Assembly: GCF_024713945.1 (NCBI RefSeq)
Contig: NC_134680.1
Coordinates: forward strand, 501,001 to 565,000
DNA length: 64,000 nt
Source: Dermatophagoides farinae
Taxonomy: Eukaryota; Arthropoda; Arachnida; Sarcoptiformes; Pyroglyphidae
Direction: 5' to 3'
Shown here one piece after another: positions 33,736-60,007 of this stretch (the stretch's first letter is position 1; each line of letters begins with the position of its first letter). Position numbers and translations under genes: made by a program. Below the pieces are notes generated by a model that saw only the letters and a list, made by a program, of their open reading frames with translations, was not told the DNA's origin and searched no databases.

Positions 33736-33802
33736 AGTTACTTGCTCAATTCATTTTTTTTGTGAATCAAATCAACAACAAACGACAATAAAGCGAAAAA
33801 AA

Positions 33803-35506
33803 ATGACAAAATTTTTTACCGTTTTGGCTGTAATGGCCACAATTCTACTTCCAGCTACCATTAATTCATTACCAAAACATTCAAATGATCAAGTTTGTAC
33901 TAGTGAACCATTGGTTGAATTGAAAAATGGTGGCCGTGTTCGCGGTCTTTGTAAAACCGGTTTAAATGGACGTGAATTGCATACATATCTATCGATTCGT
34001 TATGCAAAGGCTAATCGTTTTGCTCATTCCGTTGCCGAAGGACCATGGGATGAAGTTTATGAAGCCACCCATCAACGTGAAGCATGTCCACAAGAAGATC
34101 CAACTGTTAAACATTCGGAAGATTGTCTTTATCTTAATGTTATTCAACCAATTGACAGTGGAGATAAGTTGAAACCAGTCATGGTTTGGATCTATGGTGG
34201 TGGATTCAATCTTGGATCTATTCATGGTGTTGCCAGTATCATATATGATGGTTCAGTTATTGCATCATTAGGTGATGTTGTTTATGTCAACATGAATTAT
34301 CGTTTAGGTCCATTCGGTTTCTTATATAGTGGCACAGATGAGGCACCAGGTAATCAAGGTGTTCATGATGTAATAATGGCATTGCGATGGGTTCATGATA
34401 ATATCGAAAAATTCGGTGGTGATCCAAACCGAGTGACAATCTTTGGCGAATCAGCTGGTTCATTTATGTCTTCGATGTTGATTTTATCACCAATGGCTAA
34501 AGGTCTATTTCAACGTGCCATAATGCAATCTGGTGCTGTAAGTGATCTGAAAAATTTGTCACCGGAATATTCATTAGAAAAAACACGAGAATTTGCAAGA
34601 AAATGTGGCTGTAATCAAGATGATGCTGATGAAATGGTTGAATGTTTGAAACGAATGCCAAGAGCAAAATTAACTTTGCACGCTGGAGGTTTAAATTTTA
34701 TAGCCATGTTCACAGGTAGACAATTAGTCATAATGCGGAATGATAAAGCTGGTATTTTGCCAGATCTGCCATCAAAAATTATTCGAAAAGGTCAATATAA
34801 TCCTGTGGATCTTATGTTTGGTTTTGTTCATGATGAAGTTGCTGAAATACTCGTCCTATTGGATTTGGAATTACTAAATCCACTGAAATTATATACACGT
34901 CACCATCTTAAAAAGAAATTATATCCAATAATTAGAAAATTCACATTGGATGGACACGAAGAAGAATTATTCAAATATTATTTTAAAGATGAACATCGTG
35001 CCCTGATAAAAAGTGATACAGTAAGACGTAAAATGACCGATATGTTTTCCGATCCAGTTATGAACTGTCCAACTTATCTATTTGGACAAAGATTAGCAAT
35101 GGCAATGGCTAAAAATTCGTCAGCTACAAACCGTAATCGTTTCTATTCATTCCGTTTCGATCATCATTCACCATTTATGGCATTTATTGGTTGTGAAAAA
35201 TGGATGGGTGTATGTCATGCCATGGATTTACCATTCACATTTGGTTTACCCATACGAAAAGATATTGTTAAATTGGCTTTCACTAATAAAGATCGTCATA
35301 TTAGTGAAAATGTTGTCCGTGCTTGGACACGATTTGCACATACTGGTAATCCTGAACAAATGGGTGATGTTGAATGGCCCGAATTCTTTGGTGATAATGG
35401 TAAAACGATGCGTCAAATGGCAATTGATCTTAAACCTCATGTTTTTGAAAATGAATATCGTGATCGATGTGAAAATTTTTGGATTAATCTTCTATTACCA
35501 CAATAA
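33803..35506 (+). CDS. Secreted type-B carboxylesterase (copy 1)
   Basis: An intronless 567-residue alpha/beta hydrolase of the cholinesterase/carboxylesterase family, of normal length. Residues 1-22 are a signal peptide. Landmarks in order: EDCLYLNV near 106-113; oxyanion loop YGGGFNLGS near 131-139; nucleophile Ser217 in FGESAGS; likely acid Glu345 in FVHDEVAE; and His472 in VCHAMDLPF. The catalytic triad is therefore complete and the enzyme should be active, hydrolysing carboxylic esters outside the cell. The substrate is unknown: the family includes detoxifying, digestive and hormone esterases. It lacks a C-terminal anchor or tetramerisation tail, arguing against synaptic acetylcholinesterase. 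The start is supported by an identical context (CAATAAAGCGAAAAAA then ATG) in copy 2. It is the left half of an inverted gene pair. Confidence 0.92.
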   Translation: MTKFFTVLAVMATILLPATINSLPKHSNDQVCTSEPLVELKNGGRVRGLCKTGLNGRELHTYLSIRYAKANRFAHSVAEGPWDEVYEATHQREACPQEDPTVKHSEDCLYLNVIQPIDSGDKLKPVMVWIYGGGFNLGSIHGVASIIYDGSVIASLGDVVYVNMNYRLGPFGFLYSGTDEAPGNQGVHDVIMALRWVHDNIEKFGGDPNRVTIFGESAGSFMSSMLILSPMAKGLFQRAIMQSGAVSDLKNLSPEYSLEKTREFARKCGCNQDDADEMVECLKRMPRAKLTLHAGGLNFIAMFTGRQLVIMRNDKAGILPDLPSKIIRKGQYNPVDLMFGFVHDEVAEILVLLDLELLNPLKLYTRHHLKKKLYPIIRKFTLDGHEEELFKYYFKDEHRALIKSDTVRRKMTDMFSDPVMNCPTYLFGQRLAMAMAKNSSATNRNRFYSFRFDHHSPFMAFIGCEKWMGVCHAMDLPFTFGLPIRKDIVKLAFTNKDRHISENVVRAWTRFAHTGNPEQMGDVEWPEFFGDNGKTMRQMAIDLKPHVFENEYRDRCENFWINLLLPQ

Positions 35507-40448: not shown

Positions 40449-41246
40449 TTAATCAAAATTCAAATTTTCAATATAATCATCATCAGGAATTTGATATTGT
40501 GGTTTTTGTTTTTTACAATCACCAAAACCATCACCACAACCACTAATTTGATATTGTGGTTTTTGTTTTTTACAATCACCAAAACCATCACCACAACCAC
40601 TAAGTTGATATTGTGGTTTTTGTTTTTTACAATCACCATAACCATCACCACAACCACTAAGTTGATATTGTGGTTTTTGTTTTTTACAATCACCATAACC
40701 ATCACCACAGCCACTATTTTGATTAACATTTTGCCTACGATATCGGCAATTTGGACAATCATTCTTCCTTGGTGGTGGTGGTGGTGGTGATGATGATGAT
40801 GGATAGATTCGATTGATATTTACATTCGATATTTTCAATTTTGGTTGCATTCGATAATCATTTCGTTGTTGTTGTTGTTGCTGTTGTTGTCGTCGTCGTT
40901 GTCGCATGATCCATTGTATCATTTGATACGTTAATCGTTTCATATATCTGGATTCATGATTTATGATTTTAATTTTGATTAAATCATTAGAATTACTTCC
41001 AGATACATATGGAGGTGGTGTTGGTGGTCTTTTTACTTTAAACGATATTATTTTTATCGGAAATGCTGCTGTTGCCGATGAATTTTCGATTTTTTCACCA
41101 TTATCATTTCGATTCTTAGAAATTGTCGATTCTTTGTCAAATTTTATTGTAAAAGATCGATGATCATTATCATCATTCAGTGCCATAGCCATAGTGATCA
41201 ATGATAATGACAAGAACATTAATACTAGTGGTGATGATCGTTTCAT
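40449..41246 (-). CDS. Secreted protein with four SGCGDGYGDCKKQKPQYQ repeats
   Basis: A single 265-residue frame with a clean signal peptide (MKRSSPLVLMFLSLSLITMA, cleaved near residue 22). A Pro-rich linker and IKIKIINHESRYMKRLTYQM plus RRRQQQQQ resemble the 39.1-40.0 kb gene. The C-terminal third has one CPNCRYR motif and then four tandem 19-residue units, each with two Cys (GCGDG[YF]GDC) and KQKPQYQ. The evenly spaced Cys pairs could form one small disulfide loop per unit, giving a beads-on-a-string extracellular protein. No known family recognised. Confidence 0.65.
   Translation of the reverse strand: MKRSSPLVLMFLSLSLITMAMALNDDNDHRSFTIKFDKESTISKNRNDNGEKIENSSATAAFPIKIISFKVKRPPTPPPYVSGSNSNDLIKIKIINHESRYMKRLTYQMIQWIMRQRRRQQQQQQQQRNDYRMQPKLKISNVNINRIYPSSSSPPPPPPRKNDCPNCRYRRQNVNQNSGCGDGYGDCKKQKPQYQLSGCGDGYGDCKKQKPQYQLSGCGDGFGDCKKQKPQYQISGCGDGFGDCKKQKPQYQIPDDDYIENLNFD
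40491..40718. repeat. 57-bp coding tandem repeat, four copies
   Basis: Unit starts lie at 40491, 40548, 40605 and 40662. The copies are nearly identical at DNA level. The two downstream copies share the Phe codon and the two upstream ones the Tyr codon, so the array probably grew by doubling of a pair or was recently homogenised. Confidence 0.9.
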
Positions 41247-41697
41247 ATTGGATAAAAATTGAAAAATCTTCCTGAAAAATTAAAAAAAAGTCGTAAAGTC
41301 TGAAAAAAATCAAACAGTTTTATAACTGGGAAATTATCAATGAATTTTACCATTTAACGAATGTTTTTTTTGTCATGGATCGATTATAATCTGTGATATA
41401 TTTTTTTGGTGACATTTATTTTGATAATAATCATCAATCAGGAACTTTGACATTTTTTCTCCAATCAATCAATCGATTGAGTGATTGATTGATGATGACT
41501 ATGTTATCATAACAACGGATATTATATTGATTGATTATTTATTGATTTGTGAAAAACAAGAGAAAAAATAAACACAAAAAAACAGATTAACATAATAACA
41601 GATAAGTGAATGGAAAATTGGCTGATCATATTGGTTGTAAATATTGTTGTTGCATGATTCGAAACTATTTCGACTTGATTGTGATTATTTTTATTAA

Positions 41698-43419
41698 TTA
41701 TTGTGGGAATAGATATTTATTCCAAAATTTTTCACAACGATCACGATATTGATTTTCAATAACACCATTTTCAACGTTAATTGCCATTTGACGCATTGTT
41801 TCACCATCATCGCCAATGAATTCTGGCCATTCAACATCACCCATTTGTTCAGGATTACCAGTATGTGCAAATCGTGTCCAAGCACGGACAACATTTTCAC
41901 TAATATGACGATCTTTATTAGTGAAAGCCAATTTAACAATATCTTTTCGTATGGGTAAACCAAATGTGAATGGTATATCCATGCCATGACATACACCCAT
42001 CCATTTTTCACAGCCAACAAATACCATAAATGGTGAATGATGATCAAAACGGAATGAATAGAAACGATTACGGTTTGTAGCTGTCGAATTTTTAGCCATT
42101 GCCATTGCTAATGTTTGTCCAAATAGATAATTTGGACAGATCATAACTGGATCGGAAAGCATATCGATCATTCTACGTCTTAATGAATCAGTTTTTACCA
42201 TGGCATGATGTTCATCTTTGAAATAATATTCGAATAATTCTTCTTCATGTCCATTGAATGAAAATTCTTTGATTATTGGAAATAATTTCTCTTTAATATG
42301 TTCACGTGTATATGATTTCAATGGATTTAATATTTCAAAATCCAATAGCATGAGTATTTCAGCAAGTTCATCGTGAACAAAACCAAACATAAGATCCACA
42401 GGATTATAATGGCCTTTTCGAATAATTTCTGATGGCCGACTTGGTACAACACCAGCTTTATCATTCCACATTACGATTGGTTGTTTACCTTCAAACATGG
42501 CTGGAAAATTCATACCATCACCTTTCCAAGTTAATTTTGATGGTGGTAATCGTTTCAAACATTCAACCATTTCATCAGCATCATCTTGATTACAGCCACA
42601 TTTTCGTGAAAATATTTGTGTTTTTTCTAATGAATAGTCTGGTGAAAATTGTTTCAGTTCATTTAAAGCACCAGATTGCATTATAGCACGTTGAAATAAG
42701 CCTTTAGCCATTGGTGACATTATCAGCATCGAAACAAAAAATGAACCAGCTGATTCGCCAAAGACTGTCACTCGGTTTGGATCACCACCAAATTTTTCGA
42801 TATTATCATGAACCCATCGCAATGCCATTATTACATCATGAACACCTTGATTACCTGGTGCCTCATCTGTACCACTATATAGGAAACCGAATGGACCTAA
42901 ACGATAATTCATATCAACATAAACAACATCACCTAATGATGTAATAACTGAACCATCATATAGGAGACTGGCAACACCATCAATAGATCCAAGACTGAAT
43001 CCACCACCATAGATCCATACCATAACTGGTTTCAATTTATCTTCACTGTCAATTGGTTGAACAACATTAAGATAAAGACAATCTTCTGAATGTTTAACAG
43101 TTGGATCTTCTTGTGGACATGCTTCACGTTGATAGGTGGCTTCATAAACTTCATCCCATGGTCCTTCGGCAACGGAATGAGCAAAACGATTAGCCTTTGC
43201 ATAACGAATCGATAGATATGTGTGCAATTCACGTCCATGTAAACCGGTTTTGCAAAGACCACGAACACGGCCACCATTTTTCAATTCAACCAATGGTTCA
43301 CTAGTACAAACTTGATGTTCATCATTATCATCAGCATTTGAATGTTTTGGTAATGAATTAATGGTAGCTGGAAGTAGAATTGTGGCCATTACAGCCATAA
43401 CGATGAAAAATTTTGTCAT
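41698..43419 (-). CDS. Secreted type-B carboxylesterase (copy 2)
   Basis: An intronless 573-residue paralogue of the 33.8 kb gene. A longer reading from 43449 exists, but the ATG at 43419 has the same context as copy 1 and gives the signal peptide MTKFFIVMAVMATILLPATI. It differs by a six-residue insertion after the signal peptide (ADDNDEH region). The triad is intact: Ser223 (FGESAGS), Glu351 (FVHDELAE) and His478 (VCHGMDIPF). Differences cluster in the middle (residues about 240-400), for example around LTWKGDGMNF against LTLHAGGLNF, the zone that lines the acyl pocket in this family, so the two copies may prefer different substrates. Both copies look functional. Confidence 0.92.
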   Translation of the reverse strand: MTKFFIVMAVMATILLPATINSLPKHSNADDNDEHQVCTSEPLVELKNGGRVRGLCKTGLHGRELHTYLSIRYAKANRFAHSVAEGPWDEVYEATYQREACPQEDPTVKHSEDCLYLNVVQPIDSEDKLKPVMVWIYGGGFSLGSIDGVASLLYDGSVITSLGDVVYVDMNYRLGPFGFLYSGTDEAPGNQGVHDVIMALRWVHDNIEKFGGDPNRVTVFGESAGSFFVSMLIMSPMAKGLFQRAIMQSGALNELKQFSPDYSLEKTQIFSRKCGCNQDDADEMVECLKRLPPSKLTWKGDGMNFPAMFEGKQPIVMWNDKAGVVPSRPSEIIRKGHYNPVDLMFGFVHDELAEILMLLDFEILNPLKSYTREHIKEKLFPIIKEFSFNGHEEELFEYYFKDEHHAMVKTDSLRRRMIDMLSDPVMICPNYLFGQTLAMAMAKNSTATNRNRFYSFRFDHHSPFMVFVGCEKWMGVCHGMDIPFTFGLPIRKDIVKLAFTNKDRHISENVVRAWTRFAHTGNPEQMGDVEWPEFIGDDGETMRQMAINVENGVIENQYRDRCEKFWNKYLFPQ

Positions 43420-43564
43420 TTTTTTCGCTTTATTGTTGATTTGAATCACAAATTTATAATTTTCTATGTTGATTTTTTTTCCTGGTTATTTGCTGACTTT
43501 CAATCACAAGAAAAAAAAATGAATTAAGCAAATAACTTATGAGACAATCGGTGACTATTGTCGG

Positions 43565-44366: not shown

Positions 44367-44859
44367 TTAATATCTAAAAACAAAAGAATCAAAAAAAAAA
44401 AAAAAAATATTAACCCATTTGATAATTTTCATTTAAAAAATTAATTGTATTTACTTACCCGCCGCCATGTCCACCACCGTAACCACCACCACCACCACCA
44501 TATTTTTCTTGGCCATATCCACCATGATAGCTTTCATAATGTGGAATTTTAATTGGATATGGTACTTTAACATAAACTGGATATGGAATTTTCACTGGAA
44601 TCTTTACTGGTATAGCTACCGGTACTTTTACTGGCACTTCAATAGTTTTCACTTCTGGTTTTTGTTTGACCATAATTGGCATTGGTACATGGTATGGTAC
44701 TTCTTTGATAATTTTCATCGGTACTGATACATGATGATGTACAACTTCTGGTTCATCTTTGCCTAATAAATCATCAAGCATATTGGCCATTGTTTGTTGT
44801 AGAATTATGGCCAATACTAATAATGATTGTAATTGATATATTCGATTGTTGAAATGCAT
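44367..44859 (-). CDS. Small secreted VPVK- and Gly-rich protein, cuticle or silk type
   Basis: Exons 44859-44459 and 44373-44367. The second coding exon supplies only A-TAT-TAA, so the protein ends ...GGHGGGY (135 residues). The ATG at 44859 gives the signal peptide MHFNNRIYQLQSLLVLAIIL; an upstream in-frame ATG at 44889 would bury it. The mature protein alternates Pro with beta-branched residues and Lys (VPVKVPVAIPVKIPVKIPYP) and ends with a GGYGGGHGGG stretch. This composition is typical of arthropod cuticular and structural secreted proteins with VPV/KIP repeats. No chitin-binding R&R motif is present. Confidence 0.75.
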
Positions 44860-44986
44860 TTTTTTTGGTTGTTTTTGTTTTTCGGTCAATATGTCGATAT
44901 TACAAAATGAAACACACGGAACAAAACAAACGAATTGAATGGGATGATTTGAAATGGATGATTGAAGTGAAAATAAAAATCTTGAA

Positions 44987-44995
44987 GTTTATATA
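44987..44995 (-). promoter_or_regulatory. TATA box of the VPVK-rich protein gene
   Basis: Minus-strand TATATAAAC lies about 130 bp upstream of the ATG at 44859. It is a good match to the arthropod TATA consensus and the only one in the flank. Confidence 0.55.
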
Positions 44996-46254: not shown

Positions 46255-46744
46255 TTAAAATGTAAATGTATAACCAACTTTATGCCAAAAACAAGATCTA
46301 AATATTGATGTATATTGTTCATATGATGGCTGGTCATGACAAAATGATTCAAATCTATTGATTGTTGATTGTTTCAATTCCATTGCATATGTATTGTTAC
46401 AACCTCGTGCAACATCTATTTCACATTGTAATGTATACCATACGAAACAACAAAATCCAAGTGAATTAATATACTAAATAATTATTGTGGTGATATGGTA
46501 TGTATAGACACGAAATGAGAAAATCAATAAATCGATAAAAAAAATCCAGAAATGAATCATTACTTACAAAATCATCGATTTTTGTACCATAATATCGTAG
46601 TGCTTTTATTTCACAATAATCAAATGCTTCTTTCTGTTCCAATGTACATTCAACGGGTGGCCCGTAAACAGGTTTATATGGATAACGTCCACAATCAATT
46701 TGATCAATAATCAGCATCATCGATAATATTACTATGGACAACAT
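46255..46744 (-). CDS. FCCFVW cysteine family, member A (soluble, short)
   Basis: Exons 46744-46568 and 46473-46255 give 131 residues. Signal peptide MLSIVILSMMLIIDQIDCG, then the family start YPYKPVYGPP, Cys pair C-x10-C and KIDDF before the intron. Exon 2 starts Y-I-N-S-L-G-F, then CC-x7-C-x7-C (FCCFVWYTLQCEIDVARGC), followed by an FC motif. The protein then stops at CFWHKVGYTFTF with no membrane helix, unlike members B-F. It is either a secreted version of the family or a copy that lost its 3' part. The stop lies in otherwise ordinary sequence. Confidence 0.7.
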
Positions 46745-46917
46745 TTTTTATTCCGGTTTTTGGCAACCACCACCACCACCACAAAAGTGGTTTCTGTCTG
46801 GGCAATTTCAAGTAAGAATCAAATTTTTTTTTTGTTTGAAAAAATTTTTATTTAATTATTCTAATGATGATTGTTTTGTTTTAGTTTATTTGTTGTTGTT
46901 TAATTGAATGAATGAAT

Positions 46918-47568
46918 TTAATTACATATTGCATCTTTTCCTAATCTAAAATAACGATATGGAATACTGGCCAAACCACCACTAACAGTTAAAAACCATT
47001 TCCATATAGTTGCCAATATTTCTGGACAACTATATTCGGTGATTAGAATCACTATAGTGCCTAAACCGCTCCAATACCAGAAATTTTTTGAATTTGCTGT
47101 ATCAAACATGAAACATTTGGTAAAAAATTTATTCAAACGATATTCATCCAATGTTAAAATCGGTTGACAAAATGATCCAAAATCATTATTCATTTTATAA
47201 TTTAAATAATATGCAAATGTTTCATTACATTCATGTGCCACAAGTAATTCACATTCACATTGTGCCCAAACAAAACAGCAAAATTTCTCTGTTATTTCAT
47301 ACTTGGATAAATTATTGAAAAAATCATAATCAAAATCAACAAGAAAAAAACTTACAAATTCATCAACATAAATATTGAATCTTTGTTCCATTTGTTCTTG
47401 GCAATCATTAAATTTTCTTATATGTGATGGATTACATTCTTCGGGTAAACCATTACTATCTAATAATGATTTATATTGATATACACGACAAGAAATCTGA
47501 TCAATGTTCATCATCATCATCATCATCATCAATAGCCATAATATCCAGATTGAATTGAAGATTTTCAT
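46918..47568 (-). CDS. FCCFVW cysteine family, member B (membrane)
   Basis: Exons 47568-47356 and 47301-46918 give 198 residues. The ATG at 47568 begins MKIFNSIWILWLLMMMMMMM, a signal peptide; an upstream in-frame ATG at 47622 is less likely. The ectodomain has EECNPSHIRKFNDC (C-x10-C), VDEF, the intron, then FCCFVWAQCECELLVAHEC with one extra Cys, and FC. Two hydrophobic stretches near the end (GLGTIVILITEY and FLTVSGGLASI) may be membrane segments. The intron is only 54 bp, a multiple of three without a stop. Retaining it would insert 18 residues, but the position shared with all paralogues shows it is an intron. Confidence 0.72.
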   Translation of the reverse strand: MKIFNSIWILWLLMMMMMMMNIDQISCRVYQYKSLLDSNGLPEECNPSHIRKFNDCQEQMEQRFNIYVDEFVSFFLVDFDYDFFNNLSKYEITEKFCCFVWAQCECELLVAHECNETFAYYLNYKMNNDFGSFCQPILTLDEYRLNKFFTKCFMFDTANSKNFWYWSGLGTIVILITEYSCPEILATIWKWFLTVSGGLASIPYRYFRLGKDAICN

Positions 47569-47749
47569 GATTCTGTTACATTGTAATTCTACTACTCTAT
47601 TTGTGATTTTATATACATCCAAAATGGAATTTCGAATGCTGAGGAGGTAATAATTTCGAATTTTTTTTCTTTTGAAAAAAATATTTTTATTTAATTAATT
47701 TTTTGAATTTTGGATATTTTTTTTTAGGACTGTTGATGCAAACAACAAT

Positions 47750-48476
47750 CTATTCTCTAATGTCATGTAAATATCTTTCATAATTTACATGATAATTAAC
47801 TAATGGATCCGGTTGTTTAAAACTAAGAAACATGCCAGTAACCTGTGTAAAGATACAAAATCCACACATTGGACCCATCCATATGCCGAAACCGATGGTC
47901 AATAAAATGGCAGCTATAATTACTCCACCAAATATCATTAAATCAGTGTTATTATAATAACAAAACCATGAAAATTGTCCATAACCATTTTGTTCACAAA
48001 ACGGTTTAAACATGTCGATTGATGTTGCCTCCAATAACCTGGTGAAATTGGCCGCATTCGTATTGGATTTTACACAGACTTTAGCAATTTTAATTTCACA
48101 TGATAACTGTTTCCAAACAAAACAACAAAATTTTTGTGATATTGTATACTATTAACCACCACCAGCATCCATCCATTCGTCGAGATAGAAAAAAATGTTC
48201 AACAAAAACACATGATATATAAACAAACAGGAAGAAAAAAAAATACATCATACATACATAATCTTCAACTTTTGTTTTCCAATAATCAGCGGCAAATATT
48301 GTACAACTATAGAATAAATTTATTACTTCCAATTCTTTACATAAATGTTCAGGTAATTCTAATATTGGTTTATATGGATAAAATTTTAAAATACTTTCAT
48401 CAGCACCGGCCACTATTTTAACAGCAATGGCCATCATTAACATAAATGTTGTTGTTGATTTTTTGAAGATAAACAT
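47750..48476 (-). CDS. FCCFVW cysteine family, member C (membrane)
   Basis: Exons 48476-48258 and 48148-47750 give 205 residues. Signal peptide MFIFKKSTTTFMLMMAIAVK, then FYPYKPILELP, C-x11-C, VEDY and the intron. Exon 2 starts YTISQKF followed by FCCFVWKQLSCEIKIAKVC and later FC. A long hydrophobic region (MIFGGVIIAAILLTIGFGIW, then CGFCIFTQVTGMFLSF) makes one or two membrane helices, followed by a polar tail NYHVNYERYLHDIRE. The pattern is that of a small cell-surface protein with a disulfide-rich ectodomain. Confidence 0.75.
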
Positions 48477-48593
48477 ATCAGCATTATTTTTTTTTTCAAA
48501 AAAATTTTTCTTTCTTTTTATATTCAATTTTCTAATTATTATTATTTATTCATTCATTTATTTTTTTTATTATTATTACCACTACCACTACCA

Positions 48594-49443
48594 CTATTGT
48601 TCTGGATAAATAATTTTCTTACCAACATTAATCATTTCAAATATTAGACCATCTGAATCTGGATGTGGTTCCCAATATTTTTCATTGAAAAATGTATTAT
48701 AATATTGTGCACCAATATTGTAGAAAAATAGACCAGTACAAAACAATGTAATTGGTCCCATTGGTGTTAAATAGGCAACAATAGCCAATATAACAATGGC
48801 AGCCAATGCAAGTATCCATGTTTGTTTGGTTGCAAAACAATAAATATCATCATATTTGATTGGTTTACAAAAATCGCCAAACATTTTTTTAGTTGCATTC
48901 ATTAAATTATTACCATAATGGGATTTTTTTTTCGTACATCTTTCAACTATATATAATTCACATTTCAATTGTGACCAAACAAAACAACAAAAATCTGATG
49001 TTGACATATACTTTTGTGTATTTATAAATATAAAAAAAAAACAAGAATCAAAAATCAAAATTTATCAAATGTATAACACACATACTTACATAATCATCGA
49101 CAGTGATACGCCAACGTTTTCTTTGTTCTTCTTCACAACGATCAAATTCAGCACGAAATGCTGGCTGTTGACAATCATTATCGGGTAAACCATATACAGG
49201 TTTATATGGATATAATTGTAATTGTTTATATATACTAATTGGTTTCGTATTGTTTACATGTTTCGATGCAAACGATCTGAGTTCAATCCATGCTTTAATT
49301 ATGCTCATTACATCAATTGATTCAATACCATTTGGTAAAATTAAAATTGATAGTAAAAATATATTTTGTAATGATGATGATAACATAAACAATAACAACA
49401 AAGACGATGATTGTGTTGAAATAGTCGCCATTCGATTAATCAT
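48594..49443 (-). CDS. FCCFVW cysteine family, member D (membrane)
   Basis: Exons 49443-49090 and 49010-48594 give 256 residues. The N-terminus is hydrophobic (SSSLLLLFMLSSSLQNIFLL), probably a signal peptide. LYPYKPVYGLPDNDC, C-x11-C, RKRWRITVDDY and the phase-0 intron follow. Exon 2 begins YMSTSDF and continues FCCFVWSQLKCELYIVERC and GDFCKP. Membrane helices lie at about 181-198 and 202-220, with a 35-residue tail rich in Tyr and Pro. Member E is its closest relative: the exon-1 cores are nearly superimposable (ELQLHPYKPVYGLP against QLQLYPYKPVYGLP), so D and E are a recent tandem pair. Confidence 0.75.
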
Positions 49444-49554
49444 GTTTTTTTTTTTGATAAATTTTCAATTTGCTCATGACTTTTATATGCAAAAAAAAAC
49501 AAACAAAAAATGCTAATTTGATTTGAATGAATTTATTTTTATTTCCACATATAT

Positions 49555-50302
49555 TCAATTAAATAATTTTGTTTCAATTAAACGTATCATATATGATTCT
49601 GAACAAGTATTATGAACAAATTGACCGATACAAAAAGCAAAAAAAGATACATTTGGAAGCATGATTACAACAGTTCCCATGGATAAAATGGATATTAATA
49701 AAAAATAACCTGCATATTGTTGATTCGAACAAAGTATATCATCATATTGGATTGGTTTACAAAAATCGCCAAACATTTTGATGGTTGTATTTTTCAATTG
49801 ATCACTATAACGTAATGTGGATTTTTTTTTATTACATTTTTCAATCACTTTTAATTCACATGATAATTGTGACCAAACAAAACAACAAAATTCTTTTGTT
49901 GATATCAACTAGACCATATATATGTGTGTGTTTGGTGAAAAACAAACAAACAAAAAAAAATTATCATACATAACACACACACAAAACACATTCACTTACA
50001 TAATCATCGAGTTTAATATTCCAACGTTTTCTTTGTTGCTCTTCACAATGATTAAATTCAACACGAAATTCTGGTTGTAAACAATCATCATATGGTAAAC
50101 CATATACTGGTTTATATGGATGTAATTGTAATTCTTTTAATAATTTTATTGTTTTTTTCGATTCAATTTTGGATGGAAAAAAAATTAAAAACGATATTAA
50201 AAGTAAAAACAGCGACGACCACGACAACGATAATGATTGTGTTGTTGAAATAGTCGTCATTCGATTCATCACGGCTATATTGGTCATTTTGGTTTTCTCC
50301 AT
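49555..50302 (-). CDS. FCCFVW cysteine family, member E (membrane)
   Basis: Exons 50302-50000 and 49908-49555 give 218 residues. The ATG at 50269 (MNRMTTIST) aligns with the start of member D and may be the true start. Signal/hydrophobic segment WSSLFLLLISFLIFF. Then HPYKPVYGLPYDDC, C-x11-C, RKRWNIKLDDY, the intron, LISTKEF, FCCFVWSQLSCELKVIEKC and GDFCKP. Hydrophobic region YFLLISILSMGTVVIML and FFAFCIGQFV near the C-terminus. The exon boundary (AG then TTG) means exon 2 has no ATG of its own. Confidence 0.75.
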
Positions 50303-50534
50303 ACATTGGTATTTAAAGTGGTTGGTTGTTTCGAATCAAACAAAATTGGTCAAATGTTTTTTTTTTAATTAAATTTTTTTTTATTTATTAAAAATTTTAC
50401 AAAAATGAATTGGACAACACACCCATTCACCCACCTACACATGCATGAATATCGAAGCAAAAAAAAAAATTTTTCATTTGTTTGTTAATTTGTTACCGGA
50501 AATTAAATTAAATTAGATTAAAACATTCATTTCG

Positions 50535-52727
50535 CTATAATCGATTTGGAATCGATAAATTTATTTTATTACCACTTAAATTATTTGTCATTTTCGTTGA
50601 TGTCGATACTAACAATGGTTTTGTTGTCGCTGTTGTTGTCGATAATACACCCGATACAAATCGATTATAACGGATACCTTGTGGCAATAATTCAAAATCA
50701 CCAATAGGTTGATGATATTGACGATCCGGTAAACAGATTGCCATTAAAAATCCACGATCCATACCAGATTCTTGAAGATTTTCCACAGAAAATGTTGGAT
50801 TATTCAATAGATTTTCTTTATTCATTCGTTTTAAACCAGATTCCAGGGCGAATGATGCACTTTGATCATATGTACGTAATGTACTACGTATAATGGTTAT
50901 TTTGGTTTTTGTTGCTGAATTTTCCTGTTGCTGCTGCTGGTGTTGTGGACCAAATAATCGTCTTAATAATTGTTTCAGACCATAGATTACATTCGGTAAA
51001 ATTGGTCCATTAAAATCCAGCGTTGTTATCGTTCGATTATTTGAATCCATTCCAATGTCGGAAGCAGCAGCGTTCACCGTTTTATGACGAACGATAATTG
51101 GACGTAAACATGCTCCATGAAATGCAACAGGTGCCAATATCGTCGGTGGAATACCAGCCAAAGGACCAGAAGTGGAAATACAAATCTTTCGTTGATTAAT
51201 AAACAAACCTAACAATAATTGTAAATTTGCGATACCATTCACACGTATAAGACTTCGAACTTTGCCTTGAGCACTTTGATCTTCGATTTGTTTTTTTCTT
51301 CGATGTTTACCACTACCAGCACCACCACCACCATCCTCTGAACTTGTCATTAATCGACGTCTTCTTAATGATGATGTTTCCAAACTTGGAAAATCTTGTT
51401 GACTAAGTCCTAAACTTTCTAACCATAGATTCGAAGATTCTTCATCTTTTTCATCATTATCATTTATATCTTCATCATCATCATCATCATCGCTACTAAA
51501 ATCTTCCATTTCAATACCTGAAGATGATGTAGATGTTTTGGAATTTTCATCATTTCGATTCCCAATGGTAGTCGATGATGATGATTGATTCATATCATAA
51601 AATGGCATTTCAAACGGGATTCCTTCTGTTTCAAGTAAACGTCTAAAACCAATCGTCGTTGGTGTGATTAATGCATGTGCATCATTTGCATTGGTTATGC
51701 CGGATGCACGAAATAATATGGTGAAATTATTGGCACAAAGATAAAAATATGGACAATATTTTGTTTTTAGTAATTTAAATAATGAATGAAGAGCTATACA
51801 AAAATCTGAATATAATGAATCAGCAATTGAACCTGTTGGTGATATTTGAAACATTGGCGGTTTCATTGATGATACATGAGAGCCTGGTTTCAATTCTGGT
51901 TGTCGTGGAAATAGACGCATCCATGATAAATGTGGATATTGCCATACTAAACAATTACGTTGAAGTTCAGAACAGAAATTCTGTTCCGTTTTTGTAGAAT
52001 CAATAATACTATTATCAATCATTGATTGTTGATCATTATTATTGTTTGATGTACCACGAACAAATTGATTTAAACCATTAGATTCATCTAATGAATTAAA
52101 TGTACCATTAAATGGTATTGAACGATTAAAAACAATTTTCATTCGTGTTTTTAGACTCCAATCAATTTGTGGTGAACATAATGGATAAAAATCCGAAACA
52201 ATAACATTCTTCTGTTGATGTTGTTGAAATGAAGGAAATGATATCTGTGCATTTTCATCATTGAAATCCAATACACGTGTGAATGTATTTTTCTTATTAT
52301 TTCCATTCGATACCTGTGATAATGAACGTCGAACAACCGGGAATGAAATCTGTGAATTATTATTACTACAACGCCGTGGTGAACGCAATAATTTTTTCAT
52401 CAATGGTGAAAAAGTTCTTTGTTTTGGTGATTTAGTTGATGATGATGATGATGAGGACGAATTGTTGTTGGTGGTAGATTGCTGTTGTAAACATTTTAAT
52501 GGTGAATAAATTTTCTCCACTGTTTCAATTGGTAATTTACATCTTCGTAAAGCAGCTGTAGCTTTGCTTGGTGAAAAATTTTTCTTTACATTTGTATTCC
52601 GTTGCTGTTGCAATCGTCGACGAAATAATTCTGATGGTTTCATAAATTTTGGTGATGATCGTGGCGATGATAATGAATCGGATCGTGGACGTTTTTTTGT
52701 CGGTGTTTTCAATGGAGATTTGTCCAT
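50535..52727 (-). CDS. DONSON: DONSON / humpty dumpty replication factor
   Basis: An intronless 730-residue protein. The disordered N-terminal third is Lys/Arg/Ser/Pro-rich with many SP/TP sites, fitting a cell-cycle-phosphorylated protein. The conserved core matches what I know of DONSON: WSLKTRMKIVFNRSIPF; NCLVWQYPHLSWMRLFPR; the run around FCIALHSLFKLLKTKYCPYF with YLCANNFTILFRASGI; TPTTIGFRRLLETEGI; and near the end GLKRMNKENLLNNPTFS. An acidic Asp/Glu block sits near residues 415-435, between the conserved segments. DONSON family proteins act in the nucleus to assemble the CMG helicase and keep replication forks stable; the Drosophila orthologue is humpty dumpty. Length is within the family range. 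It has no visible link to the membrane-protein genes around it. Confidence 0.93.
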   Translation of the reverse strand: MDKSPLKTPTKKRPRSDSLSSPRSSPKFMKPSELFRRRLQQQRNTNVKKNFSPSKATAALRRCKLPIETVEKIYSPLKCLQQQSTTNNNSSSSSSSSTKSPKQRTFSPLMKKLLRSPRRCSNNNSQISFPVVRRSLSQVSNGNNKKNTFTRVLDFNDENAQISFPSFQQHQQKNVIVSDFYPLCSPQIDWSLKTRMKIVFNRSIPFNGTFNSLDESNGLNQFVRGTSNNNNDQQSMIDNSIIDSTKTEQNFCSELQRNCLVWQYPHLSWMRLFPRQPELKPGSHVSSMKPPMFQISPTGSIADSLYSDFCIALHSLFKLLKTKYCPYFYLCANNFTILFRASGITNANDAHALITPTTIGFRRLLETEGIPFEMPFYDMNQSSSSTTIGNRNDENSKTSTSSSGIEMEDFSSDDDDDDEDINDNDEKDEESSNLWLESLGLSQQDFPSLETSSLRRRRLMTSSEDGGGGAGSGKHRRKKQIEDQSAQGKVRSLIRVNGIANLQLLLGLFINQRKICISTSGPLAGIPPTILAPVAFHGACLRPIIVRHKTVNAAASDIGMDSNNRTITTLDFNGPILPNVIYGLKQLLRRLFGPQHQQQQQENSATKTKITIIRSTLRTYDQSASFALESGLKRMNKENLLNNPTFSVENLQESGMDRGFLMAICLPDRQYHQPIGDFELLPQGIRYNRFVSGVLSTTTATTKPLLVSTSTKMTNNLSGNKINLSIPNRL

Positions 52728-53721
52728 GTTTTTTTTTTATTCAGAAATTTCTATTGCAAAACAAAGAAAAAAAATACAGAAAATCATAAAATGGCAATTC
52801 TCAGCATATTCTACTTACTCAAACATCAATAAATAAATGAGATCAATTTTGGCTAGATGATCCAGAGAATCAAACTAGGATTCTTTGGATCACTTTGAAT
52901 GACCACAGCTGAGAAAGCAAGGGGTCAGAAAACTTGTCGAATAAATTTTTGGAGCGCGCTCAAAACACACACACACACACACGAAACTGCTCACACACAC
53001 AAGTACAGAAAAAAAAACCGTTGATATTCATTTATACGCATGCGCAGTGATTTTATTGCCATCACTTAACCATAAACAGTTGGCTAGCGGTATAAATAAA
53101 TGAGTGTGTGTGTGTGTGTGTGTGTATGAAACGGCAAATGTAAAAATTCAAATCAATTTTTGAACGAAAAAAATGGCGCCAAAAAAAAACATTCGAAAAT
53201 TATTTTATTGAAAAAAAATCGAAAAAAAAATCCAAGATAAAATCGACGATATGAACTGAAATTTGATATATTTTTTTTATCGATCATTTTGATAAATCAA
53301 TAAAACAAACAAACAACGCAAACACACACACATGTTCATTATCATATCATACGAATCAGAATCATTTTTTTTTGTAACTTTCACCATTTTTTCCCTTTTT
53401 TTGGTCAGGCTACAAAAGAAAAAAAAGGGGAAAAAAATTTTGCTGAAACAACTACAACGCACAGCATACATTGATTGATGATATGATCAATTTCGATGGA
53501 TGATAATGTTGATGATTTCAAAAAAAAAAAAAAAAATAAAAAAAATTATTAAAAATATCCAATTACACAGGATGAATGATTGATAAAAAAAATTCATTTT
53601 TCAACAAGAAAAACATTACCATCATATATTTGCACATTTTTCGACGAAAGAAAAAAGGCCCATGGTCATGTAATTTTTTTTTCGAAAATTCAAAAACATT
53701 TCATTTACAAATTGTGGTAAA
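52728..53721. other. Divergent intergenic region
   Basis: Lies between DONSON (-) and the next + gene. It contains GGAGCGCGCTC, ACGCATGCGCAGTG (an NRF1-like ATGCGCA site near 53037-53047), GGTATAAATAAATG near 53087 and AATGGCGCCA near 53172. These fit a bidirectional promoter, with the NRF1-like site plausible for a replication gene. A TG repeat lies at 53104-53126. Confidence 0.45.
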
Positions 53722-54469
53722 ATGATGGCCAATAAATCTACTACTTTGGAATCGACAAAATCATCATCATCATCATCATCATCGTCATCGTCATCAACAA
53801 AATCTGTGCATTGGATTTATCAAAAATTCTGGTTATTCACAATATTCTGGCTGATTATCGTTATGATTATTGTGATTATAAGCACATCGTTTTATGTTTA
53901 TTATGGTATTCAAGAAAAAAATGATGATTCCACCACCATTGCCACCACAGCGATTGAATGGCTATTTTTTGGTGATGATAAAAATTGTACAACAACAACA
54001 ACAACAAATCTCAATCAACAACAACAACAACAACAACAACATAGTGGTACGAAATCAAAACAAAAAGATGGACGTTGGGCATTAATGTTTGATGAATTTG
54101 TTGAATCAATCAAATGTTTGGGCAATTTGATTGAAGATTCAAGGCAAAGTATGTGATTGGAAAATTGGAAATTGGCCCAACCAAAAAAAAAAAAAAAAAA
54201 TTTAATTTTTTTTTTCTCATCAAACCCAAACCCAAACCCCTCTCTCCAAAAAAATATATGCAGATCAAGCTGAATCATGTTGTCGTTATGATGCATTCAA
54301 ACAGGTGCTTGTTGAACGTGCAATCATACGCTGTCCAAGGCTAGAATCGGAACCAGAAAAAATTTTACATCTATTCACACCATTAAATCGTTATATGAAT
54401 CATAAATGTAAAGATGTTGATACCGATACATTTGCATGTCAAATGATGTCATTGGTCATGACGAATTGA
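53722..54469 (+). CDS. KQKDG-type cysteine protein, member G (N-terminally anchored)
   Basis: Exons 53722-54148 and 54264-54469 (phase-1 intron) give 210 residues. A poly-Ser cytoplasmic head is followed by one membrane helix at about 37-61 (LFTIFWLIIVMIIVIISTS), then a Thr/Gln-rich stalk, which suggests a type II orientation. The ectodomain begins KQKDGRWALMFDEFVESIKC, then after the intron CC-x16-C and two further Cys near the C-terminus (HKC, FAC). This matches member H step for step (KQKDG, DE[FY], IKC, CC, C, C, F.C.M). The pattern Cys, intron, CC, Cys also echoes members A-F, where the spacing is CC-x15-C. Confidence 0.68.
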
Positions 54470-56870
54470 TGATTTTTGATTATCGAAATTTTTTTTTTCA
54501 TTCCATCCATTTATTTATTTGTTTTGAATGATGGTCCTTTCACAAACAATGTGTGTAATATTTGACTTTTTTTTTGATCAAAAATTTGTGCGAAAAAAAG
54601 TAATAAAAAAAAAATTGAAAACAAATGTATCCATTTCACTGGTGATTAGAAGGATAATGTACGTTTTTTTTCATTTCTGTATTGTTGGAACAAATATTTG
54701 TCGACACAAACAAAATTCAACAATTTTTTTTTTGTTTGTTTGAAATTGAAATTTGACCCAAGAAATCCTATGATTTTTTTTATGTAATACACCGACTATT
54801 CCGATGAAGAAATTTGATCATCAAACATTTCGTCATGTTTTTCAGGTTTTTTGTTTTGTTTTTGTTTTTTGTCAATCAAGTTCAAAGTATCATTTTGGAT
54901 CAGGATATTTCCGTGGTATTTTCTTTTTTTTTCGAGTCAACAATTTTTTTTTTGATCCATTAATCGTGACACATCAATAGCCCGATAACAAATCAAATAC
55001 AAATCAACTGTGCTGAGTACGACCAACCAACCAACCTATAGCAACCACAATGGTGGCAATAGTGTTTTCGAATGTTTTAGTTGGCTGGACAAATGAATGA
55101 AAAAAAAACATTCGAATTTGAGAAAAAAAAAATCATCATCAATTGTCGTCGTCGTCGTCATCGTTCAATGTCAATCAAAACGGTAATCATAATTCACTTT
55201 GAAAGGAAAACAAAAACAATTTTTTTTTTCGTTCGTTGGCAAATATTTATGCATCATTGTCGTCGTGGTCCGAACTGGCTAAAACACTAATTATTCAAAT
55301 TGTTTCGTCCATTTTTTTTCCTCGTTCATCATCATTCATTTTATTATATATACCTATAGTATGGTTTTCACATGTAAGTTTTTTAAAAGGAAATTGTAAT
55401 GAATTTTTGTTTTCAAAATTCTTTTATTTCATTGATGATGTGATTAGGTAATTGAGATGAACTATCTGGCAAATGAACAAACAAACAAACAAACACAGTG
55501 GTTTTTTTTTCTTTTTTATTTCATCAATCAATTTTTTTTCTAAATGATCATTCAATACAATTGAAGAGATTGGTATAATGTGGAAAAAATCAATATACAC
55601 TGTGCTCATTGATGATTATATCCATGGTGATAATCAAATCAAATTATCAATGATATTAATCAACATACAAACATCAGCCACAAATTTTTAAATGTCAACA
55701 TTTGAGCATATCAACAGTCTAATTTATTTTTTTTTTTGTTTAAAATAGCAACCAGTGTGTTTGCCTGTGTGTGTGTGTGTATGTGTGGATAAGGTGTTTT
55801 GTTTTGTTTGATTTTTATCAATTATTTCTTGTGGAAAGTATTATATCTCGTCGTATATTATGTTCAGATTTTTTTTTTGTTGTTGGATAGTGAACTTTTT
55901 TTTTTTTTTTGATTTTCAATCATCATTTTAAAGAAATGCCAACAACAACAGCAACCACATGTGTGATCTGAATGATGTGAAATTTGATACCATACATTGA
56001 ATGTAGGTATATCGGTTTTTTTGTTGTCGTTGTTGATTTAAATCAGATTCTTTGAAATCATAAATAAACAAACAAACCAGTGATTCTTTTCTTGATTTTG
56101 ATCCCAAAATCAAAAGTTTTTTGTCTTCAATCATAATCATCATTCTGCTGATGCAATTAAATTTTTTTTTTCTTCACACAAGGTTCATGTAATCAGTGGT
56201 TTTTTTTATAATTCTGAATAACATCTCGAATTTCACATTCGAATATTTTTGTGATTTCATCAAACAAGAACAAGTAAATCATTTCAAATCACTGAAATCA
56301 ATTTTTAATCATTATCATTTTTTTTGTAATATTTAGCTGATATTAATCTTTTTTTTTCTTGTTACAGGCGTCATCTTGACTATTACTAAAAAATACATCG
56401 GGTGTTGTATGGTAGTGGTGGTGGTGGTGGTATTGATTCTCTATTGATTTATTGAAAATTTATACACTAACTCACTCTTATCATCATCATCATTGCATAT
56501 ATATTTCTTATATTTCCATTATCCAAAAATGATAACATCATTGTCATATGAACAAATGAATGGATGATGAATACTGCACATTAACAAATCAATAGAAAGT
56601 TTTCGATATAGATAGATAGATGGCAAGAAATCATCATCATACTTAAATATATTCCAACAATCATCAAATAGATAAGATTGTAAATCATCCAACATTTACA
56701 ATCCACACATAGCAGACTACCAGTACGGTTGGGACCCAAAACAATATTATTGCAAAGAACAAAGAAAATCTGTTGATTGGATTGTTTGAAAAGAGCAAAA
56801 AAGAAAATTATTTGGCAAAAAATTGACAAAAAAAATCAAATTTTCTATTCATTACAGTTCATTCTGATTT
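54470..56870. other. Gene-free region
   Basis: No supported exon. Made of T and A runs, a TG repeat near 55768-55784, GTGGTG near 56411-56431, and ATC triplets. The ORFs here are composed of homopolymer-coded residues. Confidence 0.5.
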
Positions 56871-56880
56871 TATATATAAT
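56871..56880 (+). promoter_or_regulatory. TATA box of member H
   Basis: TATATATAAT lies about 50 bp upstream of the ATG at 56928, giving a short 5' leader. Inferred from position. Confidence 0.5.
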
Positions 56881-56927
56881 AACATTTACAAATTAACAAG
56901 AGTTGTTCATTTGCAACGTATAGAAAA

Positions 56928-57633
56928 ATGTCAAGAATTATTCCAAATCAACAATCATCAATTTTCATCATTATTTCATTGTTTTTGTTGTTGGCTTTAT
57001 CATCAATAACCGAAGCCAAACAAAAAGATGGAAAATTTGCCACAATATTGGATGAATATCATTCAACAATTAAATGTGTGATAAATATTGCTGAAGAAAC
57101 CATTCCAGGTATGTTCTTCTCGAGATGATATAATGATGATGATGTTAATTGATATTTTCTATTTTTATATTATGAATCAAGAATTGGATGATTATGTTGC
57201 ATGTTGTGGATTTTGGGCCATAAATGATTGGCTACAGAATAAGGTAAGCGAAGAATGTGAAGAAGATAACGTGAAACAAGTACAACATATTAGTGGCCTG
57301 GTTGAACCACAAATTCGTCAACATTGTACAGCATATGAACGTGGATCATTCACATGTCGAATGTTGATCATAATGCCAATCGTGATGGTCGTTTTGTTTA
57401 TATTGTTTGTCATTTCATTCTGTATTTGTGCACATGTATCGTTATTTAAATGGATCCAAGTACGACGTAAATATCGTCGTGTTGTAAATCTTAATCTACA
57501 ATCTGATGAACCATTTGTATCGGCAAAAATGATGAATGAAAAAACCAAAGGCAATGGACAGACAATGAACAGCAGTAGCAATGATTATGGTCATCATCAT
57601 CATCAATCATCACGATTTAAAAATCAACCATAG
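56928..57633 (+). CDS. KQKDG-type cysteine protein, member H (type I membrane)
   Basis: Exons 56928-57108 and 57182-57633 (73-bp phase-1 intron) give 210 residues. Signal peptide about 1-30 (SIFIIISLFLLLALSSITEA), KQKDGKFATILDEYHSTIKC, then CC at 68-69, CC-x16-C, QHC and FTC before a membrane helix at about 121-146 and a basic, His/Asn/Ser-rich cytoplasmic tail. The split codon 61 lies seven residues before the CC, the same place as the introns of A-F, shifted by one nucleotide in phase. H is therefore a useful bridge between G and the A-F group. The stop lies 190 bp from the convergent member F. Confidence 0.7.
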
Positions 57634-57822
57634 AAAAAAAACGAAAAAAATGCATGTTTTATGTTTTTTTTTTCGATTGTAAATAATTATTAGCTTAATT
57701 TAATTTTTATTAGGCTCAAATATAAATTTTTGGAATAAAATTTTTCAAAATGAATAAATAAGAACCGTAATGTTTGCGCATATATATGATTTATATCGAA
57801 TCTGTAATCTAATAATTTGATT

Positions 57823-60007
57823 TTAATCAAATTTGGTTGCATCAAAATTAAAAGCCGATGGTAGTTGTGAAACATTTGATGTTATTTGTGTCACAAACTT
57901 GCCTCTACCATAGGTTAATGTAATTGGTTGTTCCGTCATATTTTGCTGTTGTTGTGGTACCATCGATGATGATGATGGTGATTTTCCCGAAATTTTACTT
58001 ATGGTTTTTTTTGATGGGCTGGTGATTTTGAGTTTCGATCCTGGTTTACCTCCCACCGTCGTCGTTGATCGTTTTGGTGATAATGATGATGGTGGTGAAT
58101 TTCCGAAAATTTTACTCTTTATGATTTTTTTTGGTTTCGTTCGTCTAAATAATTTTCGATATCGTTGTTTACCCGTTGGTGGTTCTTCTGGTATTGTCGA
58201 CAATGATGGTTTCCATCCACGTATTTCCGGTACATGATGTCTATTAATTTTGCTATAAATCGATAGCTCTATCTGTTTTAATGGCTCCTTCACTTTTGGT
58301 ACTTTCGGTAATACTGGATTCCAATTTAGCGGAATTTCAGGTAATGATAAAAATTCTTCATATTCAGCTTCTGTCAACATTCTTGGTTGATCGGATTCGG
58401 AAAATTGTGGAATTGTTTCAGGAACAGATTCTAAGGCTGTAGTCATAGCCATCATTTCCACCGTTGGCGGTGATAGAGGCCTAGTCACCATTTCCACCGT
58501 TGGTTCAACAATTGTTGTCGCATGCGGTGATGGAGGCCTAGTCACCATTTCCACCGTTGGTTCAACAATTGTTGTCGCATGCGGTGATGGAGGCCTAGTC
58601 ACCATTTCCACCGTTGGTTCAACAATTGTTGTCGCATGCGGCGATGGCGGCCTAGTCACCATTTCCACCGTTGGTTCAACAATTGTTGTCGCATGCGGTG
58701 ATGGCGGCCTAGGCACCATTTCCACCGTTGGTTCAACAATTGTTGTCACATGCGGTGATGGCGGCCTAGGCACCATTTCCACCGTTGGTTTCACCAATGT
58801 TGCCGCCGATGTTGTTGGTTTTGGAATATTCTCAATGGTATTTGTACTATATAAAGTTTGTTTCAAACTAAATGTGACCAATGACAGAATAATATAATTT
58901 AAAAAATCAATTTGAATTTTCATTCTTACGTCGTTCCATGAACACTTTCCGCTCCTCCTACAGTGGTGATTGTTGGTTTTACAATTGTTGCCGATGGCGG
59001 CCTAGCCACCACCATTTCCACCATCGGTTTCACCACTGTTTTCGTCGATGATGTTAGTTTTGGAATATTCTCCATTCTATGCAAAGTTGGTTTCAAACTA
59101 AATTTGACCAGCAGCACAACAGAATAATAAAACAGATGAAAATCAATTTCATTTTTTTTTTTTTGCTATTCTTACGTCGTCGTTCCATGAACACCTTTCG
59201 TTCCTAGTTCTATTACGGTGGTGGGCATTGCTGTTTTCGTTATTACCGGCGGCTTAGCTATATTCATCGCTGTTGTTGTTGATTCAACAACTGTCGTCGT
59301 CGTCGTCGATGATGGTGGTGGTGGTGGTGGTAGTTGTTTTAACGTTTTGACAGGAAAACCGATTTTTTCCAAATTTTTTCCACCCACTATATTACTACTA
59401 TTAAAACGTTTTGTTATGCATCCAATTATACAACCAACAATCATCATCAGGATAAGAGCGATTGCAACAATAATACAAATGTCTTTTCTATCTTCGGTAA
59501 ACCAACAGAAAAAACTTGAACGGCCAAAACTTTTTGATTGACAAATTTGTTCAAACATTTGTAATGTTTTCTGTTCAATCAATTCACTATATTGTTGTTG
59601 TTGACATTTTCTTGCCACCGGTATTTCACATTCCATTTGTTGCCACACAAAACAGCAGAATTTTTGTGTTGGATAAAACTAATGATGATGAAGAAATCAA
59701 TTTGTTGAAAGAATATATCATATACACACACACACACACACACACACATAGACACAATTCTTACATATTCATCCAATGTAATTAGCCACGATTGTTTTGC
59801 ATAATTTTCACATTCATAAAATTCTTTCCGTAATTCATGTGCACAATTCAAATGATCAGGTAAACCATATATTGGTTTGTATGGAAATCCAGTCATATTA
59901 GTGGCCACAGAATAATCACCACCAACATGTATAACAATTGGAATTTGATGCATAGCCACCATCATTAAGGTATTAAACATTAGCCATAATAATATTGTGG
60001 TAGACAT
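57823..60007 (-). CDS. FCCFVW cysteine family, member F, with a long repeat-rich tail
   Basis: Four exons: 60007-59765, 59678-59176, 59097-58930 and 58867-57823, all GT-AG and in frame, giving 652 residues. Exon 1: signal peptide, FPYKPIYGLPDHLNC (C-x10-C), ITLDEY. Exon 2: FYPTQKF, FCCFVWQQMECEIPVARKC, CWF, a membrane helix (IIVAIALILMMIVGCIIGC), a basic stop-transfer and a PPPPPP stretch. Exons 3 and 4 are duplicates of each other at their starts (TLKPTL / TLKQTL, then ENIPK.T), with their introns duplicated too. Exon 4 carries six 19-residue repeats (PTVEMVTRPPSPHATTIVE) and ends in a basic Ser/Lys-rich region. The Pro/Ser/Thr-rich repeats should be cytoplasmic given the topology, unlike the mucin stalk they resemble. 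Members A-E lack this tail. Confidence 0.75.
58450..58790. repeat. 57-bp coding tandem repeat in member F
   Basis: Six units encode PTVEMV[PT]RPPSPHATTIVE. Neighbouring units are almost identical at DNA level (CACCATTTCCACCGTTGGTT on +), so the array is young or homogenised. Unit number probably varies between strains. Confidence 0.92.

Follow-up and report, generated by a model that had tools for sequence, protein, structure and literature searches.

A stretch of 64,000 nucleotides (nt) from the mite Dermatophagoides farinae (NCBI RefSeq assembly GCF_024713945.1, contig NC_134680.1, positions 501,001 to 565,000 of the forward strand), hereafter the window, contains a group of cysteine-rich genes, which raises the question of what kind of protein they encode. 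The original prediction, made from the letters alone, was an eight-gene cluster, A to H, of one undescribed family. Part of this stands, as A to F do form one family, but a gene for DONSON, a DNA-replication factor, interrupts the cluster, and G and H come from a distant sister group. The family is real, expanded, cysteine-rich and without an accepted match among the databases compared, although the window holds only six of its 27 dispersed members. The family, its gene structure and its membrane architecture are put forward here with high confidence. Whether A to F belong to a family of juxtamembrane receptors for recognition, or of adaptors for adhesion, that has expanded in this lineage, as their sequences suggest, is more evenly balanced.

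Genes A to F and a dispersed family

Genes A to F lie on the minus strand and each was rebuilt as a two-exon core with a GT-AG, phase-0 intron of 54-109 nt (6/6). Exon 2 starts exactly 21 nt, or seven codons, 5' of a pair of adjacent cysteine codons (CC) in all six, so that the rebuilt models confirm the predicted phase and position of the intron; in E the intron, of 54 nt, reads through open in frame. Exon 1 encodes a hydrophobic start, a YPYK..YGLP-like stretch, C-x10/11-C and an acidic motif directly before the intron. The cysteine spacing was found in 6/6 as predicted, and so was the acidic motif, described earlier as [DE]D[YF], in the form [DE][DE][YF]. The cysteine order common to A to F is C-x10/11-C, CC-x7-C-x7-C, a later C and a last C. 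The predicted CC-x7-C-x7-C is present in all six, with one extra cysteine inside the first spacer of E, and cysteines make up six of the twelve invariant columns of exon 2. Other elements of the proposed signature needed adjustment. YPYKPVYGLP is exact in C only, although a related stretch occurs in every gene (A FPYKPIYGLP, B HPYKPVYGLP, D YPYKPILELP, E YQYKSLLDSNGLP, F YPYKPVYGPP). Similarly, FCCFVWxQ holds as FCCFVW in 6/6, but the Q is absent from F, and the later FC is IC in A.

In the rebuilt models of B to F, gene B comprises exon 1 at 50000..50302 and exon 2 at 49555..49908, the latter, also supported by the genome search, with the FCCFVW core and a hydrophobic segment. Core and hydrophobic segment are likewise combined in exon 2 of C (48594..49010; exon 1 at 49090..49443) and of D (47750..48148; exon 1 at 48258..48476). 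Exon 2 of E (46918..47301; exon 1 at 47356..47568) encodes a core, modelled as a helical ectodomain, and a hydrophobic segment that falls under the threshold, while that of F (46255..46473; exon 1 at 46568..46744) encodes a core with all eight cysteines and without a membrane segment; by its sequence, the product of F may be secreted or truncated.

Gene A is longer. The stop previously placed at 59172 was abandoned, as a GTAAGA donor at 59175 leads instead to two further in-frame exons. The gene has four exons and encodes 652 residues: exon 1 (59765..60007), with the hydrophobic start, FPYKPIYGLP and C-x10-C; exon 2 (59176..59678), with the FCCFVW core, the last cysteine and, by hydropathy, a membrane segment; exon 3 (58930..59097), a Pro/Thr-rich tail; and exon 4 (57823..58867), a repeat-bearing tail and the C-terminus. 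Exons 3 and 4 are in frame with GT-AG borders, ending at 57823. The tail repeat is a 57-nt unit present six times (58467-58806, 96% match), with units such as TIVEPTVEMVPRPPSPHAT; these are proline-rich, and SH3/WW-like by eye only.

The D. farinae genome (62,435,336 bases on 22 contigs, in which the window is C4:501001-565000) was searched with exon 2 of A and of B, giving 34 and 26 matches, respectively; all genome match counts are lower bounds. In keeping with the species, a group 7 allergen gene of this genome agrees with Der f 7 (PDB 3uv1) at 192/194 aligned positions. Loci outside the window were matched at E 2.0e-20 (A) and 1.5e-8 (B). The family, termed FCCF here, was defined as 27 of the 34 rows found with A. 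The last seven, mostly tail or low-complexity matches, were set aside, and the two of these that were inspected (L062 and L063) are without the CC core. The search with B recovers 26 of the same 27 loci. These lie on three contigs: C4 (six in the window and five elsewhere), C6 (ten: seven in tandem at 4.61-4.62 Mb, two at 4.80 Mb and one at 3.23 Mb) and C8 (six).

The gene structure is kept throughout the family. An AG, the phase-0 acceptor site, stands exactly 21 nt before the CC codons in 21/21 loci outside the window, whereas along the cluster's minus strand AG occurs at a rate of only 0.026 per position. Together with the exon-2 matches outside the window, this places the signature of A to F far beyond chance. 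CC-x7-C-x7-C followed by a later cysteine is present in 26/27 loci, the next spacer being 19 in 21/26 and 17-25 in the others; in the remaining locus, L025, stops interrupt exon 2 after 43 codons, beyond the CC-x7-C-x7-C spacers. The second cysteine lies exactly 22 residues before CC in all 19 family rows with exons joined (19/19), a constancy that supports the splice sites. It is proposed that tandem and dispersed duplication together produced the repertoire of the family. Two members, L016 (C4:4952058) and L017 (C4:1142401), have near-identical exon-2 cores although they lie 3.8 Mb apart on opposite strands; the tail of L016 runs into an N stretch. Exact-motif matches on C3, C5 (two) and at C6:220385 are probably due to chance, the reversed control pattern giving three matches; at L001, the sole one examined of these four places, no open frame was scored by the hidden Markov model (HMM).

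Selection was tested on seven close C6 genes. The pooled ratio of nonsynonymous to synonymous differences per site (pN/pS) is 0.41 (0.24-0.66) for the exon-2 ectodomain core; the final 60 codons of exon 1 give 0.68 (0.40-1.17), and the membrane region gives 0.58 (0.29-1.22). The exon-2 core is constrained, in agreement with the earlier remark that the surroundings of CC are the better conserved part, as expected for a structural core. In exon 1, the nonsynonymous rate slightly exceeds the synonymous rate (dN > dS) in 3/15 pairs, and at the position between YKS and YGL the seven genes show six different residues.

The sister group containing G and H

Genes G and H lie on the plus strand, have phase-1 introns and carry six cysteines in the domain (the 6-Cys form). 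G consists of exon 1 (53722..54148), with an N-terminal hydrophobic segment and one cysteine near the domain, and exon 2 (54264..54469), with CC-x16-C-x24-C-x9-C, which scores 5.4e-17 with a sister-group HMM built with G included; an additional cysteine lies far upstream. In H, exon 1 (56928..57108) encodes a hydrophobic start and one cysteine, and exon 2 (57182..57633; E 3.4e-6 with L067) a CCGFW core, a membrane segment and a tail. Exon 2 of H gave 14 matches in its own genome, H itself included. Seven of these (L066-L072) were read and have CCxxW, a cysteine 16 residues after CC, two more cysteines and a membrane segment; the final six matches received no close inspection. L082-L088, L090 and one C9 locus came from further searches, the sequence of which was not read, while L089 was rejected as a member. 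The sister group found amounts to 18 loci, G and H included.

In a midpoint-rooted tree of 34 rows, from which L070 and L083 were left out, the FCCF loci represented by both exons, 19 of 27, group as one branch (support 100/96), with L084 next to it (97/84). The 6-Cys rows H, G, L066, L069, L071 and L072 form one branch inside the sister group (97/93). L084 (C4:78706), the nearest outgroup to FCCF, lies about 2 kb from L070 (C4:76261), which is of the 6-Cys type. The two branches thus adjoin twice, at L070/L084 and where G and H stand beside A, which fits an old tandem origin; L070 itself is outside the tree.

A profile comparison with hhalign joins the FCCF family to the sister group at E 2.6e-5 and a probability of 75%. 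None of 100 shuffles with the cysteine columns kept reached this score (best 20.0 vs 26.3). The sister-group HMM, built without any FCCF row, was searched against 2152 open reading frames (ORFs) of the fetched loci, many of them overlapping. It retrieved 15/27 FCCF loci, from 6.3e-5, before the first unrelated ORF (0.4), the remaining 12/27 coming after that ORF or not being found. In the reverse direction, the FCCF HMM placed L084 first (0.0032). With L084, L082 and L090 taken out of the sister group, the hhalign E value weakens to 0.0025. Counting against the link, the signal is gone when cysteines are masked (E 0.33), and FCCF compared with the 6-Cys rows alone gives a non-significant E 0.15. 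The last two comparisons indicate that the relationship runs through intermediates only: judged by their sequences, G and H are related to A to F in this way, as an older sister group and not as close members of the cluster.

The cysteine pattern across both groups offers a clue to bonding. A cysteine seven residues after CC is present in 29/36 rows, each with at least two cysteines before CC (those of L085 lying outside its row). It is missing from 7/36, six of which carry one cysteine before CC. The first cysteine and the one at +7 thus occur together and are absent together, which suggests that they are probably bonded to each other.

Membrane architecture and the nature of the proteins

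Hydropathy places a membrane segment near the ectodomain in 22/27 FCCF loci. It begins 5-11 residues after the last cysteine in 21/22 and 18 residues after it in L044, which has an extra cysteine; in 19/22 the residues behind the segment carry a higher net charge than those in front of it. Membrane helices had been expected in most members of the cluster, and A to D do have the hydrophobic segment, but E and F fall below the hydropathy threshold. Open frames behind the segment within exon 2 span 6 to 498 residues. They are long in L017, L019, L023, L044, L048 and L052 (193-498 residues), the frame of L019 reaching the end of its locus, and also in A. The earlier description of the proteins as secreted or membrane is thereby sharpened, since a segment follows the domain in most loci and several continue into long frames. 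This combination fits receptors or adaptors better than simple secreted effectors.

Two AlphaFold models of E, made from a shallow alignment of window sequences only and including about 17 residues coded by E's intron, are all-helical. Their mean predicted local distance difference test scores (pLDDT) are 74.3 and 76.3, with ten-residue blocks up to 95, and their predicted template modelling scores (pTM) are 0.58 and 0.71, the latter for the ectodomain alone. The first cysteine lies just before helix A and the second inside it, CC and the next two cysteines share one long helix, and the seventh follows the third helix. The predicted ectodomain is compact, wholly helical and some 90 residues long, and it has eight cysteines; the fold is modelled for E only.

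No known family was recovered in these searches, in line with the earlier remark that no named family is known to have this signature. A Pfam scan of 43/45 loci (mostly the CC exon; L025 and the C9 locus left out) gave no match at Pfam's own cut-offs, and NCBIfam gave none at cut-off for exon 2 of A, E and L090. Most Pfam matches under the threshold lie on membrane helices, for instance that of DUF4730 in six C6 genes (best 0.0028). Two profiles and L090 found nothing relevant among PDB sequences; matches to G-protein alpha subunits (E 0.084 and worse, in the stretch after the CC core) were set aside as chance. The comparison of a predicted fold with known ones, called for earlier, returned nothing at E<=0.001, either from Foldseek on the PDB for the two models of E or from BFVD for one of them. 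Plant eight-cysteine helical proteins of the non-specific lipid transfer protein (nsLTP) type were considered for their C..C..CC..C..C..C..C order, but no Foldseek row names one. As regards a viral or prokaryotic origin, one peptide pattern each found no relative in genome or viral contig collections. Among the papers listed by literature searches, no title or abstract opening describes the family, which is weak evidence of absence, subscription papers being mostly uncovered.

How might such proteins work? Lineage-expanded small cysteine-rich type I surface proteins occur in tandem clusters and combine a signal peptide, a cysteine-rich core, one membrane helix and variable tails. The layout seen here is alike, while the ectodomain itself is without an accepted match among the libraries consulted. 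Intact members with the first exon found combine a short YPYKxxYGL-like N-terminal stretch with an eight-cysteine ectodomain that is predicted to be helical. The disulfide-locked head would act as a stable scaffold held close above the membrane, showing a variable surface, and differing tails may couple it to different partners inside. A fixed core, a more variable N-terminal stretch and widely different tails are what a repertoire of receptors for recognition or adhesion would be expected to combine. Cysteine bonding, type I topology, ligand binding, signalling and a tissue role are all inferred.

It is unlikely, though not negligibly so, that the proteins are instead secreted effectors or gut- or venom-type disulfide proteins, with the membrane helix anchoring them during delivery and then being cleaved away. 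Judged by its sequence F is soluble, and the sister-group members L082, L083, L087, L088 and L090 end within 7 residues (<=7) of their last hydrophobic stretch (L085 is alike by eye), so that these five look like glycosylphosphatidylinositol (GPI)-anchored proteins. Yet 22/27 FCCF loci have the membrane segment, and in six the 193-498-residue frames behind it, counted in exon 2 alone, would be superfluous for a shed toxin or enzyme. That the members are mostly decaying or unexpressed duplicates has very little probability. L025 has early stops in exon 2 and F may be truncated, but 26/27 loci keep an open core and the cysteine spacing, and core pN/pS is below 1 in the seven genes tested.

Descent from a known domain is also improbable. 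One candidate is the RECK CC domain (PF23332 CC4_RECK; 6WBJ), a four-helix, three-disulfide module of WNT7 recognition, of which A to F would be divergent relatives. Like the present domain it is small, helical and extracellular, with CC and the next cysteine 7-8 residues on, and its last spacer of 9-12 compares with 9-10 in the sister group. Its motif is given as CC-x7-8-C-x3-C-x12-22-C-x9-12-C (PMC12842694) and resembles CC-x7-C-x7-C-x17-25-C. Exon 2 of F aligns with positions 7-55 of 56 of CC4_RECK at E 0.013, below cut-off (0.053 with both exons). However, F alone matches among the 43 loci, with 16.1 bits as the best score against a cut-off of 27. Where RECK has x3, all 26 intact FCCF loci have x7, and the 8-Cys sister rows have x8 or more, except L083 (extra cysteine). 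RECK also has no cysteine pair before CC and forms five repeats in one GPI-anchored protein. A genome-wide search with CC4_RECK hits a single place, in a RECK-like gene on C2, and none of the family loci; the sister-group HMM misses this RECK-like L091 at E<=1, and Foldseek does not list 6WBJ for the two E models, both of which include E-intron residues. Membership was rejected on the sub-cut-off match, confined to F, and the absence of the x3 spacing, and divergent kinship has a low probability. L091 itself (C2:3005850) carries a CC-x7-C-x3-C piece of 24.2 bits, under the Pfam cut-off, which gave no RECK match against the PDB. Lower still is the probability that a tetraspanin large extracellular loop (PF00335) and last membrane helix were turned into a membrane organiser. 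H shares with that loop a CCG motif and a helical, cysteine-rich domain followed by a membrane helix, and exon 2 of H (E 1.9e-4) and L070 (E 1.5e-4) match below cut-off. But the match of H weakens to E 0.019 without its membrane helix, that of L070 covers its membrane helix and involves a different part of the model, and 1/17 ectodomains matches, at 0.028. Four membrane helices define tetraspanins, whereas a hydrophobic start and one segment are found here, and membership was rejected.

Several observations weigh against the receptor or adaptor reading and the bonding proposed with it. At the hydropathy threshold used, E, F, L021 and L027 are without a membrane segment at the expected place, as is the interrupted L025. 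The tail lengths are those of open frames, which may pass a splice donor, and Pfam gave no match at cut-off for the tails. In the seven C6 genes the pooled exon-1 pN/pS is not above 1, and no positive selection was found. Of the seven rows without the +7 cysteine, L069 has a second cysteine in its presumed signal peptide, and the first exon of L070 was not found. Furthermore, as the 6-Cys rows in the tree form one branch, the joint loss of two cysteines counts as one event.

Neighbouring genes and wider meaning

The DONSON gene (50535-52736, minus strand) separates B from G; it matches PDB 8q6o at E 1.1e-38 and is without a Pfam match at E 0.01. Elsewhere in the window, two similar single-frame carboxylesterase genes lie about 6 kb apart in opposite orientation, at 33737-35506 (plus; Pfam COesterase, E 4.8e-121) and 41698-43485 (minus; E 2.8e-119). 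An open frame at 40449-41279 (minus) has a hydrophobic start and near-identical SGCGDGYGDCKKQKPQYQL repeats, without a Pfam match at E 0.01. A small frame at 44455-44988 (minus), with PVKVPVAIPVKIPVKIPYPVYVKVPYP repeats and a Gly/Tyr-rich end, is presumably cuticle-like.

House dust mites rank among the leading causes of allergy, and many proteins on their surface are nameless. It is tentatively suggested, with somewhat less than even confidence, that the eight-cysteine all-helical CC-W module is an undescribed extracellular domain whose fold was not recovered from the PDB, and that it stands at the base of a superfamily numbering at least 45 loci in this one genome, among them an expanded set of receptors in which a constant head is combined with diverse long tails. 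The family is known here from one mite genome; were it pan-arthropod and already catalogued, this would be an ordinary expansion. If the suggestion is right, this mite has about 45 loci that code for a single unnamed domain, and structural biologists could make use of a new disulfide-helix fold. What is now a set of hypothetical proteins would then become a receptor family that can be tested through a Pfam model, a structure and expression maps.

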